A stretch of DNA of 64,000 nt from Schlesneria sp. (GTDB taxonomy: Bacteria; Planctomycetota; Planctomycetia; Planctomycetales; Planctomycetaceae). Below are positions 142 to 59,570 of the stretch, piece by piece. Positions within the stretch are counted from its first letter, which is position 1; every line of letters starts with the position of its first letter. The notes beneath the pieces were generated by a model. That model saw nothing but the letters and a program-made list of their open reading frames with translations. It was not told the origin of the DNA and ran no database searches. The translations under genes were made by a program, and so were the position numbers. The stretch spans positions 1-64,000 of the forward strand of contig JAQGHU010000064.1 in the NCBI GenBank assembly GCA_028291515.1, written 5' to 3'.

Positions 142-373
142 GTCCTCAGGCCCAAGGGGCCGGCAGTTTCCCCAGCCAGGGTCGAAGGCCCTGGAACCGG
201 CCACACCCCAGATCCCGCTTGAGGCCTGTAGGGCCGCTCTTTCCATGGTTCCCGTTTTCGACTGTGAGAGGAACGTCCGGCCCTTCAGGCCTCCCAAAGC
301 ATTTTTTGACGCGGAATTCCTGGGCCTTCGACCCAGGCTAGGAAAACTGCCGACCCTTCGGGCCTGAGGAGAC
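142..373. repeat. Foldback repeat, GGCCTGAAGGGCCGG family, copy A
   Basis: A long imperfect inverted repeat. The left arm (about 142-195, cctcaggcccaaggggccgg followed by an agccagggtcgaaggccc segment) matches the reverse complement of the right arm (about 320-373). A nested inner pair reads gaggcctgtagggccg and cggcccttcaggcctc. A second copy sits at 22252-22535. No gene was found inside. Confidence 0.8.
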
Positions 374-12334: not shown

Positions 12335-12561
12335 TCAGTCCCCTCAGGGACGATCGATAATAGCCCACCGTTTCAACGGTGGGTTAGGCCACAGAAAAAT
12401 CGGCAGTCCCAGAGGGACGACAGACAACTCATGTTAGGCCACAACCAGGATTGTTTCGGATCATCTTGTTCTTTCGTCCCTGACGGGACTGGTCTTATTG
12501 ACATTGTCCTACCCCACCGTTGAAACGGTGGGCTATTATCTATCGTCCCGCTGGGACTCGG
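12335..12561. repeat. Foldback repeat with CCCACCGTTTCAACGGTGGG hairpins
   Basis: The left arm 12335-12392 (cagtcccctcagggacga, then ataatagcccaccgtttcaa and the rest) matches the reverse complement of the right arm 12505-12561. Each arm itself contains a perfect palindrome, cccaccgtttcaacggtggg at 12365-12384 and its variant near 12512-12531. An inner pair reads agtcccagagggacgac and tcgtccctgacgggact. It lies just downstream of Ku and could also end that transcript. Confidence 0.85.
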
Positions 12562-13407: not shown

Positions 13408-13606
13408 AGCGGAATCGACTGTGGCTCCTCATCACGATCGAATACCAACTCCCAAACGGACGATTCATCGAACGAATACAGTGACCTAAAGGTCGTGACA
13501 CCCACCCGCTAAGTCGTCATGGAATTGCATTCCAGACTCAGTACCCACAACCGGTTCAATACAAAGACATTCAACTGGACGGGAATTCAGCGTTTCGTTC
13601 TCTGAA

Positions 13607-13749
13607 TCCTTCGTGCTCTTCGTGTCCTTCGTGGTGAAAGCATGCTGAACAAGCTAGTTAACTTGATCCGCAGTCGCTGTTGATTCACAGTGTTGGCGTG
13701 TGACGAGCGGTAGAGAATGACCACGAAGGACACGAAGAGCACGAAGGGG
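13607..13749. repeat. Inverted repeat, CTTCGTGTCCTTCGTGGT family
   Basis: Arm 13607-13635 (tccttcgtgctcttcgtgtc plus cttcgtggt) is the near-perfect reverse complement of 13720-13749. The arms are built from a roughly 9-bp module, cttcgtgtc or cttcgtgct. The 85-nt interior carries one copy of the aacttgatccgcagtcg motif also found at 14670 and 44493. No gene was found in 13408-13871. Confidence 0.85.
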
Positions 13750-13871
13750 GAATTTGATGAGCTTTCCAGTCGCTTGATCGGTTGTGCCGTCGAGGTCCAC
13801 TGAATCCTAGGTCCGGGGTTGCTGGAATCTGCCTGCGAGCAATGTTTGGCGTATGAGCTAATGGGGTAGTT

Positions 13872-16579: not shown

Positions 16580-16583
16580 CGGT

Positions 16584-16714
16584 TAAGTGGCCTTCTCGCT
16601 CCGCCGAGAAGTAAGCCGATGAGCACAACGCCGTGATCGCCACTCGGTTCCGCTGCTGCCCGGCGCGCGGATTTGCAGTTGGCTTACTTCTCGGCGGAGC
16701 GAGAAGGCTACTTA
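16584..16714. repeat. Inverted repeat, CTTCTCGCTCCGCCGAGAAG family
   Basis: Arm 16584-16617 (taagtggccttctcgctccg plus ccgagaagtaagcc) is the near-perfect reverse complement of 16681-16714. The arms themselves contain a short palindrome (cttctcg...cgagaag). A second small hairpin element, ggcacacggagtgtgcc, follows at about 16723-16739. Confidence 0.85.
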
Positions 16715-16761
16715 AAAGATTCGGCACACGGAGTGTGCCTACTACTTTGGCTACCAAAACA

Positions 16762-18600: not shown

Positions 18601-18797
18601 TGGTCACTCCTTTCGTTCGCGTCGGTCGGCAGGACATCTAAGCAAGTCGATCGGATTCTAACGATGGGGGGCAGGTTGGGGAAGACGCGCGGGTCAGGTT
18701 TAGGCGGCTTACCGCAACCAAATCAGCCTGTCTGGTTAACCTATATCCACTATGTTGGCGTGACTTGGCCGAAGTGACCATGTTTAAACTCTCACTC

Positions 18798-18919
18798 GTC
18801 ATTCCCGCGCAGGCGGGAATCCAGCCATTTCGTATCGAATTATGGACGCCGAGATTTCCACCACTGCAGCATCGACATCGTCCCGCGATTCGCTGGATTC
18901 CCGCCTGCGCGGGAATGAC
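18798..18919. repeat. Inverted repeat GTCATTCCCGCGCAGGCGGG, copy 1
   Basis: Arms 18798-18824 and 18893-18919 are perfect inverse copies (gtcattcccgcgcaggcggg plus aatccag). Each arm is also a small hairpin (attcccgcgcaggcgggaat). Other copies are at 21142 and 59444, with a degraded piece near 25692. The form resembles widespread REP/dRS3-type repeats of other bacteria. It sits 26 nt beyond the sulfotransferase stop. Confidence 0.9.
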
Positions 18920-18945
18920 GGAAAGTAGGAGGGGATGGTGGAAAG

Positions 18946-21141: not shown

Positions 21142-21230
21142 GTCATTCCCGCGCAGGCGGGAATCCAGCTACCTGGCAACGACTCCCGCCGTCTCTTGGC
21201 TCTCTGGATTCCCGCCTCCGCGGGAATGAC
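21142..21230. repeat. Inverted repeat GTCATTCCCGCGCAGGCGGG, copy 2
   Basis: Arms 21142-21168 and 21204-21230, with one change (cctccgcg for cctgcgcg) in the right arm. It lies between the GNAT start region and the methyltransferase stop. Confidence 0.9.
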
Positions 21231-22688: not shown

Positions 22689-22793
22689 TTCAACGCAAAG
22701 GCGCGAAGTCGCAGAGACGCAAAGCAGAGAAAGAGACTACGGCCATTCTGATTGATCAGATCTTTCTTTGCGTCCTTGCGCCTTTGCGTTGAA
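22689..22793. repeat. Inverted repeat, AACGCAAAGGCGC family
   Basis: Left arm 22689-22724 (ttcaacgcaaaggcgcgaag then agacgcaaag) and right arm 22766-22793 (ctttgcgtccttgcgccttt plus gcgttgaa) are imperfect inverse copies built from a 9-bp module. It lies just after the stop of the lipoprotein gene. Confidence 0.85.
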
Positions 22794-25918: not shown

Positions 25919-26425
25919 ATGTCCAGCAGTTTCAGTGGTGGTGAATTTACCGAAGCCGAAACAATGCGTGGCCGAACCTGGCCGTGCCTGCGTCAGTTCT
26001 GTGTCTTCCTGGAAAATCGCGTCGGGCGCTTAAATGACTTGATGCGGCAGGTGGAATCGCTGGACACTCGCGTTCTTGCGATGAGCATCGTCGATTCCGT
26101 CGACTTCGCCATGGTCCGGCTAATCTTTAATGATACCGATCGGGCTCGTGAGAAGCTGGAACTCTCCGGCTTCATGTTCAGCGAAAGCGATGTCGTTGGC
26201 GTCGAGCTTCCCGAGGGGGAACAACCCTTCCACAATATCTGTTCGACATTGATGAAGGCGGAAGTCAACATTCATCATGCCTACCCGTTGCTCTTCCGGC
26301 ATCGGGGCCAGGGGGCCATCGCGATCTTCGTTGATGACGTGGATACCGCGACCAATGTCCTGAATGCGGCCAAACACCGCGTCATTACGGAAACCGACCT
26401 GCAGGACGACGACGAGTTCCTGTGA
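25919..26425 (+). CDS. ACT domain protein
   Basis: A 168-residue cytosolic protein with two ACT-like units: residues about 20-90 (FCVFLENRVGRLNDLMRQVE, VDFAMVRLIFND) and about 95-155 (ICSTLMKAEVNIHHAYPLLF, GQGAIAIFVDDVDTA). ACT domains bind amino acids and regulate enzymes or act as sensors. No catalytic domain is attached, so this is a free regulatory subunit-like protein. ATG 25919 has ggagtg 9 nt upstream and is preferred to GTG 25907. It lies 49 nt upstream of a DUF1501 gene on the same strand, perhaps in one operon. Confidence 0.82.
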   Translation: MSSSFSGGEFTEAETMRGRTWPCLRQFCVFLENRVGRLNDLMRQVESLDTRVLAMSIVDSVDFAMVRLIFNDTDRAREKLELSGFMFSESDVVGVELPEGEQPFHNICSTLMKAEVNIHHAYPLLFRHRGQGAIAIFVDDVDTATNVLNAAKHRVITETDLQDDDEFL

Positions 26426-26474
26426 TCCCCGGTTGGACTTCATCGTCCGATCGTGCACGCGTTGGAGATTTGTC

Positions 26475-27929
26475 ATGCCCCGACCCGAAATCTCAGAAGC
26501 GATCGCTCGCCGGACGTTTCTGAATCAACTGACGGCGGCCTCGACCGCCGCCTTGATGTCTGGTGCGCCGCGCCTGGTGGCCGGCAACGAGCACGAAGCG
26601 GTCACTCATCCCGAGCCGACTGCCGACTCCTGTATCCTGCTGTGGATGGCGGGGGGCATGGCCGCGCCCGAAACGTTCGATCCGAAGCGATACCATCCCT
26701 TCGAAATCGGGACTCCCGTCGACAAGGTGATGAGCACCTTCAAATCGATCGATACTGTCGTCGACAACATCAAAATCTGCGAAGGGCTGGAACAGATTGC
26801 CGGTGTGATGGATCGCGCGACGCTGATCCGGTCACACTACCAGCCTGACTTGGGCAGCATCCTGCATTCGCGGCATCAGTATCACTGGCATACGGGTTAC
26901 GTCCCGCCGCAGACTGTTGCCGCGCCGCACATCGGTGCATGGATGGCACGAGTCCTGGGGCCGCGCAACCCCGTCATGCCCGCGTTCATCAATATTGGTC
27001 AGCGATTGGAAGGGATCGGCGAGAACGAAGAGATCAAGGCGTTCACGCAGGCTGGATTCTTTGGCAGCGAATTCGGACCGATGAACCTGCCCTATCCCGA
27101 CGAAGCGGCTCGCGCGGTCCGGCCACCGAAAGGAATGGAGCCCGGACGCTTTGAAAGTCGACAGAAGCTCTTCCGCAAGCTGCTTGATCAGAATCCCCAA
27201 CGCGATTACCTGAGCGACTATCACCAGCAATCCATGTTGCGATCGCTCGAGAACGCACATCGCTTGCTGAGCTCCAAAGACCGCGATGCGTTTGATCTGT
27301 CGCTGGAACCGAAAGAGAGTTACGAGAAATACAACACGGGTCGATTCGGTCAGGGCTGTCTGCTGGCTCGTCGACTGGTCGAGTCGGGGGCTCGCTTCGT
27401 CGAAGTGACCACCGAATACATTCCGTTCGTGCATTGGGACACTCACGCCGACGGACATGCCGCGGTGGATCGATTGCACAAAGAGATTGACCGGCCGATC
27501 TCGCAATTGATCCTCGACCTGGAATCCCGCGGGTTACTCGACCGGACCCTGGTGATCATCGCCAGCGAATTCAGTCGCGACATGATCATTGAAGGGGTGC
27601 CGGGATCGAACGCGCGCGATCAAGCGACGGCCCCGACCGATATCCTGAAAGAGCCCAAGCACTACGGCCTGCATCGCCACTTCACCGGCGGCACTTCGGT
27701 GGTCATGTTCGGCGGCGGCGTGAAGAAGGGCTTCCTTTACGGCGAAACAGCGGCAGAGCGGCCTTGCCTGGCGATCAAGAATCCAGTCTCTGTTTCAGAC
27801 ATGCATGCGACGATTTTCCACGCGATGGGGATCAGCCCGAAGACGCAATACGAAGTGGAAAAGCGGCCGTTTTATGCGTCGGAAGACGGAAAAGGGAAAG
27901 CGGTGAAAGACGTTTTTAGCCACGGATGA
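26475..27929 (+). CDS. DUF1501 domain protein, second paralogue
   Basis: A 484-residue member with a weak Tat-like leader (RRTFLNQLTAASTAALMSG). The family block ILLWMAGGMAAPETFDPKRY follows, then HWHTGYVPPQTVAAPHIGAW, RFGQGCLLARRLVESGARFV and IIASEFSRD. No DUF1549 partner is adjacent, unlike the copy at 2031. ATG 26475 has ggaga 6 nt upstream. The last few codons and the stop (VFSHG then TGA) are encoded by the left arm of an inverted repeat that begins at about 27913, so the original C terminus has been replaced or extended. Confidence 0.9.
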   Translation: MPRPEISEAIARRTFLNQLTAASTAALMSGAPRLVAGNEHEAVTHPEPTADSCILLWMAGGMAAPETFDPKRYHPFEIGTPVDKVMSTFKSIDTVVDNIKICEGLEQIAGVMDRATLIRSHYQPDLGSILHSRHQYHWHTGYVPPQTVAAPHIGAWMARVLGPRNPVMPAFINIGQRLEGIGENEEIKAFTQAGFFGSEFGPMNLPYPDEAARAVRPPKGMEPGRFESRQKLFRKLLDQNPQRDYLSDYHQQSMLRSLENAHRLLSSKDRDAFDLSLEPKESYEKYNTGRFGQGCLLARRLVESGARFVEVTTEYIPFVHWDTHADGHAAVDRLHKEIDRPISQLILDLESRGLLDRTLVIIASEFSRDMIIEGVPGSNARDQATAPTDILKEPKHYGLHRHFTGGTSVVMFGGGVKKGFLYGETAAERPCLAIKNPVSVSDMHATIFHAMGISPKTQYEVEKRPFYASEDGKGKAVKDVFSHG

Positions 27930-28438
27930 AACACGGATTGAACACGGATAAAGACAAGAATTGTGGGAAAGATGGAAAGGAAAAAGAGCGCGAGATGGGA
28001 TTGCTCCATAGCGATATCACTGAAGCGATCATCGGTGCTGCGTTTGAGGTTTATGGAGTTCTTGGTTACGGATTTCTGGAGCGGGTTTATCAGCGAGCTA
28101 GGCAGGTAGAACTTCAGTCCCGGGGATTCGAAGTCGAAACTGAATCCGACATTCGAGTCATCTACAAGTGCGTTGACGTTGGTTACTATAAAGCAGATCT
28201 CTGGGTCAACCGCTGTGTGATCGTTGAGCTGAAGGTTGCGAAGGCATATTGCAGCGACGACGAACCGCAATTACTGAATGAGTTAAAGGCAACGGGTGTG
28301 CAAGTCGGTCTGCTCGTCAACTTTGGCCGCGTCAAAGTTGATTTCAAAAGATTTGCCTACTAGCGAAGATCCTGCTGTTCTATCCCTTATTAACTCTTTA
28401 ATTCTCTGCCTTTATCCGTGTTCCATCCGTGGCTCACC
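27913..28438. repeat. Inverted-repeat element 1, CACGGATTGAA family, enclosing a GxxExxY gene
   Basis: Left arm 27913-27952 reads tagccacggatgaaacacgg followed by attgaacacggataaag. Right arm 28411-28438 reads tttatccgtgttccatccgt plus ggctcacc. The right arm lacks one module. The 458-nt interior holds the GxxExxY gene and little else. Other copies of the family (30.8, 37.8, 48.2, 53.3, 58.2 kb) hold only 64-125 nt between their arms and no gene. Confidence 0.85.
27995..28363 (+). CDS. GxxExxY family protein, PD-(D/E)XK nuclease fold
   Basis: A 122-residue protein with the defining motif G26-F-L-E29-R-V-Y32. A strand-turn-strand follows with D68 (YKADLW) and E78-L-K80 (VIVELKVAK), the D...ExK triad of PD-(D/E)XK nucleases (PDDEXK_3). 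The fold is established from the family; nuclease activity for GxxExxY proteins is inferred. Length is normal and the frame intact. ATG 27995 follows aaagag at about 7 nt. The in-frame start at 27926 would use repeat-arm sequence. The gene lies wholly between the two inverted arms of element 1, so it is probably cargo or the mobility or control gene of that element. Confidence 0.88.
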   Translation: MGLLHSDITEAIIGAAFEVYGVLGYGFLERVYQRARQVELQSRGFEVETESDIRVIYKCVDVGYYKADLWVNRCVIVELKVAKAYCSDDEPQLLNELKATGVQVGLLVNFGRVKVDFKRFAY

Positions 28439-30806: not shown

Positions 30807-31001
30807 CTTAGCCACGGATTGAACACGGATAAAACACGGATTCGGAGGAAGAGATTAGGAGAAGGAGGGGGAGTTAGAAGAAGCCAGTAGCGTGAATGGC
30901 TTCCACTTTTCATCAAGACGAATTGCGATGCAGATCCAAATCGGAGATCAAGATTTCTTCTCCTCCTAATCCGTGTTTTATCCGTGTTCAATCCGTGGCT
31001 A
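30807..31001. repeat. Inverted-repeat element 2, CACGGATTGAA family
   Basis: Left arm 30807-30842 (tagccacggattgaacacgg plus ataaaacacggatt) and right arm 30968-31001 (aatccgtgttttatccgtgt then tcaatccgtggcta) are perfect inverse copies. The 125-nt interior is purine-rich on the left (aggaagagattaggagaagg) and carries no ORF. It sits just after the rhodanese stop and 40 nt before the next gene. Confidence 0.9.
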
Positions 31002-37604: not shown

Positions 37605-37774
37605 CGTGGATCTGCCTTCCCCACCGAAACCTTGCTGTTGGCCTCAACTTAGTCTTGTACACCGTCTCCGGTCGCGTCGCTATGACAGAAAGAGCATGAA
37701 GACGAAGTTCGGCGCCTAGTACTGTCGGCAGCAGCAGGAAGATGCCACGGATCGAACGCGGAGGAGAGGAGAAG

Positions 37775-37922
37775 TAGCCACGGATGCACACGGATGAAAC
37801 ACGGATAAGAAAGAAATGCATGAGCAAAGGAAAGAGATCAGGAGATAGCCCGTCTGAAGTTCAATCCGCCTCTGCTCCTCCTTTCCTAATCCGTGTTTCA
37901 TCCGTGTGCATCAGTGGCTAAT
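37775..37922. repeat. Inverted-repeat element 3, CACGGATTGAA family
   Basis: Left arm 37775-37809 (tagccacggatgcacacgga plus tgaaacacggataag) and right arm 37888-37922 are near-perfect inverse copies. A fragment of another arm (gccacggatcgaacgcggag) lies just upstream at 37744. The subterminal aagaaagaaatgcatgagc recurs in elements 5 and 6. Confidence 0.85.
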
Positions 37923-37978
37923 TATTCAGTCCTCTTCCTTCTCCTGTCTCGTAGGTACCAATCGGTGTCTCAACGAAA

Positions 37979-42690: not shown

Positions 42691-42817
42691 GCATTGCAAA
42701 TTGCGAATTGCAAAATGCAAATTGAAAAATGTAAGACAGAAAGCGAAGCGAGTCGGCTCCGTTTTTCAGGTTTCTTCCAATTTGAAATCTGCATTTTGCA
42801 ATTCGCAACTTGCAAGC
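42691..42817. repeat. Inverted repeat, TTGCAAATTGCGAATTGC family
   Basis: Left arm 42691-42724 (gcattgcaaattgcgaattg plus caaaatgcaaattg) and right arm 42778-42817 (caatttgaaatctgcatttt plus gcaattcgcaacttgcaagc) are imperfect inverse copies made of a 9-11 bp module. They lie in the 176-nt gap between prfA and prmC. Reading frames through it (ANCKLQIANC-like) are artefacts. Confidence 0.85.
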
Positions 42818-48157: not shown

Positions 48158-48290
48158 TTTAGCCACGGATTGAACACGGATGAAGAGTGGGTGATTCAAG
48201 ACAGTGGTGGCTGAGACACATGTTCGATGAATAATCTTCTCCCCTTCGTCTTGATCCGTGTTCAATCCGTGTTTCATCCGTGGCTAAAAA
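48158..48290. repeat. Inverted-repeat element 4, CACGGATTGAA family
   Basis: Left arm 48158-48185 (tagccacggattgaacacgg plus atgaag) and right arm 48252-48290 (tgatccgtgttcaatccgtg plus tttcatccgtggctaaaaa). The modules are in a different order in the two arms, so the arms pair fully only over a part. It lies between modA's 5' end and the GH32 gene. Confidence 0.85.
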
Positions 48291-50545: not shown

Positions 50546-50863
50546 TCAAGAGGCAATCGTGTCGGCGGATCCACGATCCCACGCACAGGCGATACGCCGG
50601 ACGACGCGGATCATTTCGGCGACTTGCATGGCCTGGTCTTCGATGCTCGTCAGCGACTGATGAACTTCCGTCGTCGCTGGCGAACGTCCGACCAACTCAC
50701 GGCAGAACCAGACGTGATTGACGATCTCACTGAGCGGTTGAATCAAATCGTGAGTGACCCGGGCGGCCAACTGCTCGACGGATTCCATCGCCAGCCATTC
50801 CAGAAGCTGTTCGGGAGGGACGGCACTGCTGGTCAGGGAGTCATCGGGGGGGAGCTCTGTCAT
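50546..50863 (-). CDS. HisKA-like dimerisation domain without kinase domain
   Basis: A 105-residue protein with the H-box-like LAARVTHDLIQPLSEIVNHVW (H...xP core) near residue 36, a long helix (TTEVHQSLTSIEDQAMQVAEMI) and no ATP-binding (N/G) boxes. The match is to the DHp helices of histidine kinases. It may be a phosphorelay or dimerisation partner, or a fragment. ATG 50863 has gaggtg at about 6 nt. The stop faces the GH32 gene end, 22 nt away. Confidence 0.6.
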   Translation of the reverse strand: MTELPPDDSLTSSAVPPEQLLEWLAMESVEQLAARVTHDLIQPLSEIVNHVWFCRELVGRSPATTEVHQSLTSIEDQAMQVAEMIRVVRRIACAWDRGSADTIAS

Positions 50864-51300
50864 CGGATCACCTCAAGCAATTCTGCGATGGAGATTATGC
50901 AACCTTGCTGCATGACAAAGACGATCTCGCGGCCCGCCTCCAGAAACATACGTCATATTCGGGACATCGGTTTCAGAGGGCAAAATGAGGCACTTGGGAC
51001 ACTCTTTGTTGACGCTGATTAGCTGTAAAATAATGCTGTTATTTGATTTGCGTTCCAAAATGGCTGGCGGAGAGCAGCTTGGAACCCATCAGCGGCATTA
51101 AATTCAGATTATTTTCAGAATCCTCTGGAAGTCCTGTTGAGGCCGGTCGTTGATTCTCGTTTTTCTCCCTGCAAGCCTGTGATCAAGTGTTTACCACATC
51201 TCTGACGGTTCGCTTCTGACTTTCGATGCTTCCGGACATCGAAGGCCGCTCTATCTCACGCCGTCAAAATCCACTCATCTCGCTTCGAGGAGATCTACCC
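50864..51300. other. Divergent intergenic region, 437 nt
   Basis: It separates the HisKA-like gene (-) from the cytochrome gene (+). ttgacg at 51009 with a t-rich downstream stretch (tgtaaaataatgc) is a possible promoter, but the -10 is poor. No gene or repeat was recognised. Confidence 0.35.
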
Positions 51301-52572: not shown

Positions 52573-52580
52573 AAGTGTTC

Positions 52581-52708
52581 GTTTAATCGCGTGGGCATCG
52601 CCCCGCGCGTCGCAGTGGATGGACGACCGCAGTTGTTTAACCGGCTTCCGAGTCGCTTCAGATGGAGACCTCAGCGCACGCGCGGGGCGATGCCCACGCG
52701 GTTAAACG
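52581..52708. repeat. Inverted repeat, GCGTGGGCATCGCCCCGCGC family
   Basis: Arm 52581-52610 (gtttaatcgcgtgggcatcg plus ccccgcgcgt) and arm 52678-52708 are imperfect inverse copies. It begins 9 nt after the cytochrome stop. Confidence 0.9.
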
Positions 52709-52942
52709 ACAACAGAATGAAGATTGAGATCGGGGCTCTTGCTGAGTCCTTCTGGCGAAGCGAAAGGGTCACCCTTTCTCGACTTGGCAGGAGTTCCGGT
52801 CTTTTTCTTAATGGTGGCCTCAATCTCATCAGCTAAGATGCTGTTTGTCAGCAGACATCAGCCGCCCTAAGATGGACCCATGATCCGAGCCTGGCATCGT
52901 CGGTCGGGCTTCACTCCAGTGTCCACCAATGAGGTCTCTGCG

Positions 52943-53305: not shown

Positions 53306-53311
53306 GAAAGT

Positions 53312-53449
53312 CTAGCCACGGATTGAACACGGATGAAACACGGATTAGGAAGAAAGGCATGAGGGAAGGTGGTCGGAAAAAACTGATCTGGCTTTTTGTC
53401 TTCTTCTTATTCCTTGTCCGTGTTTCATCCGTGTTCAATCCGTGGCTAA
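53312..53449. repeat. Inverted-repeat element 5, CACGGATTGAA family
   Basis: Left arm 53312-53350 (ctagccacggattgaacacg plus gatgaaacacggattagga) and right arm 53411-53449 (tccttgtccgtgtttcatcc plus gtgttcaatccgtggctaa) are near-perfect inverse copies. The subterminal aagaaaggcatgag is shared with elements 3 and 6. The left arm starts 6 nt after the phhB stop. Confidence 0.9.
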
Positions 53450-53560
53450 ACCAATCTTCTCTGATTCAGCCGTGATCCGTGGCGAACTTTCACCGTTCCC
53501 GATAGCTTCGTGAGACATCCTGTCTTCTGATTCGGGTCCACATCCACGGCGAGGCTGAAC

Positions 53561-56265: not shown

Positions 56266-58202
56266 GCCCCTTTGCTCGCCGTCTGTTCGCGCTGCCAGGT
56301 TCGCTTGGCGACATGGCGACATGGGGCACCGGCAATGTGTTTCCGTTGCTCTCGCGCGAGTTAACCGAGCAGGCGGCCCGTCGACGTACGTTTGTCGTGC
56401 GAGTTGTCTATGCCGTCGTGTTGTACGTCGTCGCGATCTGGATTTTCTATAATCAGGTCGAAAGCTGGTCGAGTCGAACATTCACCGCGCTCGGTCAAGG
56501 GCTACCGATCTTCATCGGACTCGGCTGGCTGCAATTCTTCGGCATTTACCTGTTCCTGCCCCCCATGACCTGCGGCGTGTTAACCGCCGAAAAAGAACGA
56601 GACACCCTGTCGCTGCTGATGCTGACGCGATTAGGGCCCTGGTCGATCCTGATCGGCAAACTGTTCAGTCGTATGATCACCATGGCGTCGTTCATTTGCC
56701 TGTCACTGCCATTGTTCGCCGTGGCGTACAGCTTTGGTGGAGTCGAAGCGACGCAGATTCTAAGTCTTGGCTGGGGGCTGGCGGTCACGTCACTGCAGAT
56801 CGGGTCGCTGGCGCTGGCCTGCTCGGCGTGGTGCCGCACAACGGGCTCGGCGTTTCTCGCGACGTATCTGATCGGGGCCTTTGTCATCGCCGCCCCCAAC
56901 TTTGTCACGCAAGGGGGCAATCTCGATCACTTCGGCATCTTGGAATTCCTGGCCGAATACTGTCGCACGATGGGTTTTGCGGGCGATGAAGTCACGCATG
57001 GGGATGTCACTCTGGTCTTGTTCGGACCTTGGGTATGTCTCGATCAGCAGGCATCCAATCGACCGTTTGCCGCTACCGTGGCGCGAACAGTCCCCATGCT
57101 GCTCTCGGCGGCCGTCTGCCTGTTCTTCGCCCGAGCGATGCTCTGGCGACGCGCGTTCGTGGCACCGTCGAATGTCATGCTGAAGATGTTCCGGTCGCTC
57201 GACACGCTGTTTCATCGACTAAACCAGAACCGGTTGACACGCGGAATCGTGCTGACGCGCGAACATGTCCAACTGCCGCTGTACGATCCGATTCGCTGGC
57301 GCGAAACGAAGAAGCGTTCGTTGGGAACCACGCGATATCTCATCCGCCTGTTGCTGGTGCTGGAGATCCCGGTCCTGTTCGGAATGCTGATTCCGTTCTA
57401 CGGCGACGTCACCTCGAACTATGCGCCGGCATTTGTCGCAGCGTGGATCGTCTGGGTCATCTCCGCTTTGGTCATCGCGATTCACGCCACGGGGCTGATC
57501 GGGCTGGAACGATCTCGGCAAACGATGGACGTTCTGCTGACCACTCCATTGACCAGCGAATCCATCGTGAAAGAAAAGTTCGCTGGGATCTCGCGAATGA
57601 TCGTCGTGTTGTGGATCCCGCTGGCGACGGTCTATCTGTATCAGGTCTGGTGGACAGGTTGGGTCGGCAGCTTCGAACCGAGTGAGATCCTCTTTGGAAT
57701 CTTGCGCGGCCTGCTGGCCATGTCGATCTATCCCTGGCTGATCGCCTGGATCGGATTTCATTTCGGGATGCGCTGTCGCTCGCAAGCTCAAGCGGTCTTG
57801 GTCACACTCAGCGTGCTGACCGCGGTCTGCGTGATTCCCGCGGCGCTCGCTACTTACCTCCATTCGAACGGACTGTGGACACTCGGCGAAATCGGTTGGT
57901 TAAGCCCTGCGATGGTGTTGACGGAGAGTACATATGGTCGCCAAATGTTTTTGGATTACCGCTATTCCAACAATTTCAATAGCTATCTGGCCCTCAGAGC
58001 ATGGGGAGGCCTGTTCTGTCACTTTTTCCTGGCTGGCCTGCTGCTACTCTGGCTGAGACTTCGAGTTCTGAGAACATTTGCTGGCCGACTGGGCCGCAAC
58101 GACGGACAGATCATCGATGACGACGACATCGAACGCCTCTCGGAACTCCGTCGTCAGATCCTCAAAAGCGGGATCTTCCGAACGAATCCGAATGACGAAT
58201 GA
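56262..58202 (+). CDS. ABC-2 type permease, second (paralogous) subunit
   Basis: A 646-residue membrane protein paralogous to its upstream neighbour. The shared blocks are LSRELTEQAARRRTFVVRVVYA, GVLTAEKERDTLSLLMLTRL and DPIRWRETKKRSLGTTRYLI. It differs by an N-terminal extension (SPFARRLFALPGSLGDMATW) and by an acidic C-terminal tail (DGQIIDDDDIERLSEL). It may form a heteromer with the first permease. ATG 56262 overlaps the upstream stop by ATGA. It is last in the operon; repeat element 6 begins right after its stop. Confidence 0.88.
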   Translation: MSPFARRLFALPGSLGDMATWGTGNVFPLLSRELTEQAARRRTFVVRVVYAVVLYVVAIWIFYNQVESWSSRTFTALGQGLPIFIGLGWLQFFGIYLFLPPMTCGVLTAEKERDTLSLLMLTRLGPWSILIGKLFSRMITMASFICLSLPLFAVAYSFGGVEATQILSLGWGLAVTSLQIGSLALACSAWCRTTGSAFLATYLIGAFVIAAPNFVTQGGNLDHFGILEFLAEYCRTMGFAGDEVTHGDVTLVLFGPWVCLDQQASNRPFAATVARTVPMLLSAAVCLFFARAMLWRRAFVAPSNVMLKMFRSLDTLFHRLNQNRLTRGIVLTREHVQLPLYDPIRWRETKKRSLGTTRYLIRLLLVLEIPVLFGMLIPFYGDVTSNYAPAFVAAWIVWVISALVIAIHATGLIGLERSRQTMDVLLTTPLTSESIVKEKFAGISRMIVVLWIPLATVYLYQVWWTGWVGSFEPSEILFGILRGLLAMSIYPWLIAWIGFHFGMRCRSQAQAVLVTLSVLTAVCVIPAALATYLHSNGLWTLGEIGWLSPAMVLTESTYGRQMFLDYRYSNNFNSYLALRAWGGLFCHFFLAGLLLLWLRLRVLRTFAGRLGRNDGQIIDDDDIERLSELRRQILKSGIFRTNPNDE

Positions 58203-58354
58203 GTTTTAGCCACGGATTGAACACGGATGAAACACGGATCAGCAAAGAGGAGAAGAAGATTCAAATTCAGGATCTGACTTCACTTTCTCAATCTGTTTTC
58301 CGCTCATGCATTCTGTCTTTATCCGTGTTTCATCCGTGTTCAATCCGTGGCTAA
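58203..58354. repeat. Inverted-repeat element 6, CACGGATTGAA family
   Basis: Left arm 58203-58240 (gttttagccacggattgaac plus acggatgaaacacggatc) and right arm 58318-58354 (tttatccgtgtttcatccgt plus gttcaatccgtggctaag) are near-perfect inverse copies. It starts immediately after the stop of the second permease. Subterminal ctcatgcattctgtcttt is the inverse of the segment in elements 3 and 5. The rest of the gap to 58642 holds no gene. Confidence 0.9.
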
Positions 58355-58642
58355 GACTCTTGTCTTCGTTGCCGAATTCCTACACGTCGGAATCCTGCGA
58401 TTACTCGGCAACTCAGGCACGGTGCGGAAGTTCTGGTAAAGTCTGCCGACAACTTCCTTCATTCGCCATGTCGCCATGTGGCACGTCCTGACAAGACGCA
58501 GTAGACTTCTGCGAGACTGCGCGATCTCTCGACATCAGATTTCTGCGAACCGTCGACCTCTTTTTTGACGCGGAATGCGTCTCAGCGATAATTCATGCGA
58601 CGTCCAATCTACGATTCCCCCTCGCTCATCAAGAGACATCCC

Positions 58643-59443: not shown

Positions 59444-59570
59444 GTCATTCCCGCGCAGGCGGGAATCCAGTCAATTGGGGGACCGGCTCACCACGGACGC
59501 TGTGAATCGAACGACATGGCATCGAGACCGTCTTGACGACTCGCTGGATTCCCGCCTGCGCGGGAATGAC
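59444..59570. repeat. Inverted repeat GTCATTCCCGCGCAGGCGGG, copy 3
   Basis: Arms 59444-59470 and 59544-59570 are perfect inverse copies identical to copy 1. It lies between two genes whose stops converge. Confidence 0.9.

Follow-up and report, generated by a model that had tools for sequence, protein, structure and literature searches.

Short inverted repeats of a planctomycete genome as probable mini-copies of small mobile elements

In the window, the whole 64-kb (64,000-nucleotide) stretch of DNA analysed here, the short inverted repeats are probably mini-copies of small mobile DNA elements, of which at least two kinds are represented. These repeats are real and non-random: counting at one fixed score, with a span of at most 800 bp and overlaps removed, we obtained 17 non-overlapping inverted pairs in the 64-kb window vs. 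0-1 per dinucleotide shuffle (10 shuffles). The initial annotation had pointed to an inverted repeat at 42.7 kb (42691-42817) along with others, and these are present where it had placed them, the former being recovered at 42694-42815. Its count of nine or more unrelated families held in part: grouping by arm sequence yielded about nine, five palindromic and four modular, but the repeats at 0.14 and 22.25 kb belong to one family, so that "nine-plus" is too many. The one architecture it had ascribed to all of them gave way to two arm designs. In the palindromic-arm group (0.14/22.25, 12.3, 16.6, 18.8/21.1/59.4 and 52.6 kb), each arm is one REP-like palindrome; in the modular-arm group (CACGGAT at six places, plus 13.6, 22.7 and 42.7 kb), each arm is a short word repeated 3-4 times. 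Restriction of the families to the window, which had been held up as a reason to abandon a common process, was not what we found, as their arms are dispersed over the 8.59-Mb assembly, with 107 matches for CACGGAT doublets, 40 for TTGCAAATTGC arms and 31 for ACCACGAAGG arms; in the window itself, CACGGAT-NN-AA-CACGGAT has 21 matches vs. 0.03 expected. The window also carries a perfect 21-bp tandem repeat of 5.9 copies (GGAGGTTCTGTCACACAGCCG) at 1-124, and no rRNA match was found within its 64 kb.

Palindromic-arm families

A relative (G012, 85-93% identical) is syntenic with the entire window. The palindromic copies, listed without strand, are as follows.

143..370: family A, palindromic arms; the same arms also lie around the RAYT genes L014, L015, L016 and L018
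22254..22538: family A, second copy; missing from G012
12347..12549: family B, palindromic arms; each arm has a match to Rfam Acido-Lenti-1, the two on opposite strands
16583..16715: family C, palindromic arms
18797..18920: family D, CGTC-tagged REP doublet; missing from G012
21142..21230: family D, CGTC-type REP doublet; missing from G012
59444..59570: family D, CGTC-type REP doublet; missing from G012
52579..52709: family E, palindromic arms; kept at the same G012 site

Families A-E consist of palindromic REPs set as inverted pairs, the arrangement that defines REPINs, and look like REPIN-type doublets, a known class. The genome harbors 13 Y1 transposase hits, with family A arms around four RAYT (Y1_Tnp) genes, and family A is likely driven by a RAYT, a Y1 tyrosine transposase; a RAYT gene flanked by its own repeats was found only for this family, none being seen for B-E. 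For family D (CGTCATTCCCGCGCAGGCGGGAATCCAG), the match is to REPs of the CGTC-tagged superfamily, the tag being carried at 18.8 kb, with a shorter match elsewhere; a dedicated transposase for this superfamily is not known (PMC3733652). In family B, Acido-Lenti-1 (RF01687) matches at 12337-12383 (-) and 12513-12558 (+), i.e., on both arms, and given these opposite-strand matches, what Rfam lists as an "sRNA" may instead be a REP-like repeat of the DNA. The interior of the family E repeat is also kept in G012 (contig C107, ~50700-50900), unlike the diverged interiors of other shared copies, and this doublet may have been put to use. At L067 (11990-12210), a CGTC-type REP doublet lies within an outer palindrome, GGATTATTCATGG...CCATGAATAATC, and the entire block is missing from G012.

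Modular families and their probable gene-bearing parents

By associated gene, the modular words fall to two proteins, with CACGGAT, CACGAAG and CGCAAAG accompanying GxxExxY and TTGCAAA accompanying the four-helix IVP. The modular copies and genes of the window are given below, with strand for those to which one is assigned.

13540..13607, + strand: first GxxExxY relic, its middle (..PVQYKDIQLD) fused to the C-terminal tail via an internal deletion, by alignment with L003 and the gene
13608..13747: CACGAAG-word right arm, 84-nt spacer and left arm, a tandem-element junction by L003 alignment
13748..13863, + strand: second GxxExxY relic, the gene start with an in-frame TGA (PF13366 29.1 bits, 1 TGA)
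22689..22793: mini-element with CGCAAAG-type words; in G012 also; parent L006 (GxxExxY) elsewhere in the genome
27919..28433, + strand: gene-bearing CACGGAT element, one gene between arms CACGGATGAAACACGGATTGAACACGGAT and ATCCGTGTTCCATCCGTG; orthologous G012 site occupied too
27926..28363, + strand: intact GxxExxY gene (PF13366/TIGR04256) with D62 and E72-x-K74 (numbering from base 28013)
30809..31001: CACGGAT mini-element, 3+3 words; in G012 also
37746..37941: CACGGAT mini-element with compound arms
42694..42815: gene-less IVP-type mini-element, arms of ~43 nt (TTGCAAATTGCGAATTGCAAAATGCAAATTG...), interior of 36 nt; G012 site occupied
48158..48288: CACGGAT mini-element; in G012 also
53310..53451: CACGGAT mini-element; G012 site occupied, interior strongly diverged
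58201..58359: CACGGAT mini-element; orthologous G012 site without a copy

The repeats had been described as carrying no gene, which proved wrong for several: GxxExxY is intact at 27.9 kb and present as relics on both sides at 13.6 kb, and the arms seen at 22.7 and 42.7 kb enclose GxxExxY and IVP genes, respectively, elsewhere in the same genome. Read from the alignments, the supposed "element" at 13.6 kb is the place where two decayed GxxExxY copies, arranged in tandem, meet, as the first relic ends at ~13605 and both the spacer and the second gene start align with L003; with two relics joined in this manner, gene-bearing copies are seen decaying towards gene-less ones. At 27909-27929, the left arm of the 27.9-kb CACGGAT element supplies the final residues (SHG) and the stop codon of the ORF at 26364-27929.

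The same assembly (8.59 Mb, 119 contigs) contains 12 PF13366 and 3 PF05635 places, most of them within inverted arms, with ACCACGAAGGACACGAAGAGCACGAAG arms flanking L001 and L003 (the 13.6-kb family) and AACGCAAAG... arms flanking L006 (the 22.7-kb family). As in MITEs, gene-less copies thus share their ends with a gene-bearing element of the same genome (CACGGAT, ACCACGAAGG, AACGCAAAG and TTGCAAATTG arms; PF13366/PF05635 genes). It is likely that each modular family consists of mobile elements and has a parent that carries the gene, the gene-less copies being MITE-like derivatives of one-gene elements of ~0.45-0.6 kb. Whether the repeats were ends of known insertion sequences had also been raised; they are ends of gene-bearing elements, but the proteins match no transposase family, with no transposase motif (DDE type included) in the five gene-bearing element proteins scanned and only PF13366/TIGR04256 or PF05635/TIGR02436 matched. 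In G000, contigs C21, C22 and C98 have GxxExxY fragments at their ends, adjoining CACAGAG-word arms; the assembly seems to break at these elements.

The 42.7-kb arms are near-identical to those around the IVP gene L010 (interior of 454 nt), which ATTGCAAATTGCGAATTGCAAAATGCAAATTG flanks and which encodes a four-helix protein of the 23S-rRNA-IVS type (PF05635/TIGR02436). The gene-bearing parents L009 and L010 in this genome have the S23/four-helix protein within terminal inverted repeats, as in rRNA intervening sequences (IVS), and the 42.7-kb copy itself lies between two protein-coding ORFs, not inside a 23S rRNA gene. Inverted repeats scoring at least 14 were found at 52/73 IVP loci; IVP arms have self-match peaks at 7, 14 and 21 nt and fit a 7-nt unit at 0.78 vs. 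0.57 in shuffled arms. A planctomycete IVP locus (L343) has ~175-nt arms of GTGGACG heptamers, and cyanobacterial IVP genes (L383, L384, L387, L390-L392) lie in inverted heptamer arrays of AGTTGAC, GTTGATG and GTCATTT. These cyanobacterial arms, we presume, resemble the STRR strain-typing heptamers, and STRR may be the arms of such elements. TAACTGA heptamers have been reported for Beggiatoaceae and Cyanobacteria (PMC4679880); as a candidate for IVP arms they were rejected, with no TAACTGA array in the 11 loci examined.

The process that had been proposed for all families was a common one, with slippage or hairpin copying making the arms and no dedicated enzyme. Repeated words do occur in the arms, some IVP arms being long heptamer arrays, and tandem as well as compound forms are found. 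However, dozens of dispersed copies share nearly unchanged arms, and these arms enclose the same two gene families and follow one word grammar, which renders slippage as the maker of the arms the most improbable of the explanations we considered, whereas it may homogenise words within one arm. What stood of the common process is one construction rule together with a shared nuclease family for three of the four modular families; gene-free slippage did not.

Gene-arm association and covariation of end word with protein

The association of these genes with inverted arms extends well beyond this genome. Of 392 genomes sampled from the phylum, 199 carry PF05635 and 184 carry PF13366, and inverted repeats scoring at least 15 straddle 27/30 GxxExxY and 22/30 IVP planctomycete loci. 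From all genomes, 80 GxxExxY loci were drawn, covering Planctomycetota, Verrucomicrobiota, Pseudomonadota, Bacteroidota, Chloroflexota, Cyanobacteriota, Spirochaetota, Acidobacteriota, Nitrospirota and others plus one Methanosarcinales archaeon; 49 of the 72 testable loci were straddled vs. 28 of 1058 random intervals at the same loci (2.6%), and in a set fetched later 41/60 were straddled with a median arm-to-arm length of 495 bp. At the threshold used, ~30% of GxxExxY loci lack a straddling repeat. A motif-free word test found a 7-mer present at least 4 times, inverted and on both sides, in 83 of 117 GxxExxY loci compared with 8/315 controls, and the top word fits CRCNRAN in 63 of the 117 but in 0/315 control intervals. 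The GxxExxY arm has a grammar of its own, with one CRCNRAN heptamer (e.g., CACGGAT, CACAGAG, CGCAAAG, CACGAAG, CGCAGAT, CGCCAAG, CACGGAA) repeated 3-4 times at ~9-11 nt spacing and inverted at the opposite end, the self-match of the arms peaking at 8-11 nt.

The GxxExxY protein of the window scores 114.9 bits with TIGR04256 (cut-off 35) and 116.7 bits with PF13366 (cut-off 22). Residues D62, E72 and K74 (D...ExK) are invariant in 19 and in 42 aligned sequences, and the wide alignment has G18, G20, E23, Y26, D62, E72, K74, Q86, N103 and F104 as invariant residues. Sequence search returned no PDB match for this protein; its AlphaFold2 model (mean pLDDT 96) has a PD-(D/E)XK fold, with a Foldseek match to 4ic1 (E 5e-5) and Z scores of 10.2 for 4ic1 (SSO0001, Cas4-like) and 8.1 for the Hjc resolvase (1gef). 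Based on the modelled fold and these matches, a predicted role for GxxExxY as a DNA end- or junction-processing enzyme is plausible. In likeness to SSO0001 and Hjc, it has the fold and the D...ExK residues, but it has no sequence match to solved structures and sits inside the inverted arms of a mobile element.

Word and protein vary together. Protein identity correlates with word similarity (Mantel r=0.41; best of 2000 permutations 0.10), and the nearest protein shares the word in 45% vs. 8%; the equivalent Mantel test for IVP was non-significant (r=0.07, p=0.098). Scanning alignment columns over 85 loci paired T at residue 3 with G at base 5 of the word and S/A with A, and T/S at residue 89 with G at base 7 and N with T/A. 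These rules were fixed first and then tried on 44 held-out loci fetched afterwards. The residue-3 rule was correct in 39/44 (majority guess 31), with T3 going with base-5 G in 26/26 and other residues with A in 13/18 (Fisher 1.7e-7), each of the five exceptions having S or A at residue 3; the residue-89 rule was correct in 42/44, with two exceptions (majority guess 32). Since the scored set contains close relatives and paralogues, the proper measure is a test of tree-independent pairs, on a tree built without the covarying columns, rather than the raw count. Base 5 changes at least 18 times on this tree, and among 18 independent pairs residue 3 changed in the same direction in 13 and in the opposite direction in 0 (p=2.4e-4), the next best column giving 9:1; restricted to well-supported branches, there were six pairs, about five in the same direction and none opposite. 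We dropped residue 89 as a reader of base 7: the tree has just two changes at that base, and the link between the two is confounded with descent. In the genome under study, the seven scorable GxxExxY copies obey both the residue-3 and the residue-89 rules. The end word is thus partly predictable from the GxxExxY protein sequence, and this covariation suggests that the protein may recognise the ends of its own element.

Alongside the observed association of genes with arms, the arms common to gene-bearing and gene-less copies, the dispersed copies, the occupied and empty sites described below and this covariation, we consider it likely that the GxxExxY protein binds the heptamer words in both arms and brings the element ends together, whereupon its PD-(D/E)XK site would cut at the paired ends. 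Gene-less copies with a matching word would be moved in trans, and new word families would arise when residues of the protein and all copies of the word change together. Another explanation is that GxxExxY and IVP are passengers, with an unrelated host or IS transposase moving the arms in trans and the protein only regulating or protecting. The elements do lack a transposase motif, the 13 Y1 transposase hits in the genome could act on hairpins, and the Coxiella IVS protein is reportedly apparently not made in vivo (PMC4990558); yet a foreign transposase does not predict that the word tracks the element's own protein across phyla, nor the 13:0 outcome of the independent pairs, and modular arms are not seen at RAYT genes. 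We regard the passenger explanation as unlikely.

Movement, known systems and significance

A comparison of sites with a sister strain had been called for, and G012 provided it in part, some sites being occupied in both genomes and others in one only. G012 lacks the REP doublets at 18.8, 21.1 and 59.4 kb, the family A copy at 22.25 kb and the CACGGAT copy at 58.2 kb, and conversely carries a CACGAAT-word element at a site that is empty in the window; shared are those at 22.7, 27.9, 30.8, 42.7, 48.2, 52.6 and 53.3 kb, and at 53.3 kb G012 has kept the arms while the interior is strongly diverged. At 85-93% identity, these empty-site comparisons leave ragged edges. The gene-bearing copies L001, L002 and L003 are ~90% identical over ~450 bp with unrelated flanks. 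As judged from the sequences, near-identical gene-bearing copies at unrelated sites together with occupied and empty sites indicate that the elements move. A search of plasmid and phage collections for replicon pairs with vs. without an element returned 8 plasmids, no phage and no usable pairs.

Movement also bears on the idea that the arms serve the host as signals in regulation or RNA processing (as terminators or RNase III stems) and that the genes are host regulators binding them. The elements are intergenic, often directly after a stop codon, and the stems of rRNA IVS are RNase III substrates (PMC4990558). Against this, gene-bearing copies lie at unrelated places with unrelated flanks, presence varies between relatives, the interiors of shared copies are strongly diverged, and occurrence is patchy (184/392 genomes of the phylum), so we consider a host-signal origin very improbable, only marginally less so than slippage.

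As to how self-moved elements might transpose, flanking direct repeats were not in excess in 115 GxxExxY and 21 IVP gene-bearing elements, i.e., no target-site duplication was found, and the flanking-repeat scan detected only a dinucleotide inside the arms and no constant insertion rule. Together with the hairpin-like ends, this lack of a duplication makes us prefer a hairpin or single-strand route involving host replication to DDE-type cut-and-paste, a preference that is tentative and somewhat doubtful. That the elements, like rRNA IVS, insert into hairpin loops already present was considered and rejected: in 20 CACGGAT copies, the flanks beyond TAGCC were no more complementary than between-copy flanks (p=0.36).

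Among known systems, REPIN/RAYT (Bertels & Rainey 2011, PMC3116915; Di Nocera et al. 2013, PMC3733652) comes nearest as a working analogue: its inverted doublets are short and numerous, the same repeats border the gene for a small enzyme, and families A and D fit it. In contrast, a GxxExxY or IVP arm consists of tandemly repeated words instead of a single tagged palindrome, and neither gene codes for a Y1 transposase. MITEs of DDE insertion sequences likewise have gene-less copies sharing ends with a gene-bearing parent, but here there is no DDE transposase, no target duplication was found and the arms are repeated words. The IVP elements look like relatives of the 23S rRNA IVS, which also have a PF05635 protein inside terminal inverted repeats at ~0.4-0.5 kb and were already suspected to be mobile remnants (PMC4990558); they differ in that the 42.7-kb copy is intergenic and gene-less and that their arms consist of tandem 7-nt words, mini-copies being present elsewhere, while the GxxExxY elements use an unrelated protein. 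A description of GxxExxY or PF13366 elements was not found in the open literature, subscription journals being mostly outside this scope and priority accordingly uncertain. Quite possibly, though we propose it with reserve, the GxxExxY elements form a separate mobile class whose PD-(D/E)XK protein recognises the repeated heptamer of the ends, with residue and word changing together, the IVP elements having come to the same design independently.

If this is true, the GxxExxY elements would be among the smallest potentially self-sufficient mobile DNA (~0.5 kb with one gene of ~120 codons), new and mutually blind families would keep arising, giving many inverted-repeat families of the same design per genome, and the unrelated IVP protein would have reached that design with 7-nt tandem words. 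The covariation of residue 3 with base 5 amounts to a directly testable code and raises the question of how six or more word copies in two arms change in concert. The GxxExxY and the "four helix bundle" families both comprise small proteins that are widespread and whose role is not settled; were each the single gene of a small mobile element, a large part of all dispersed inverted repeats would be accounted for.
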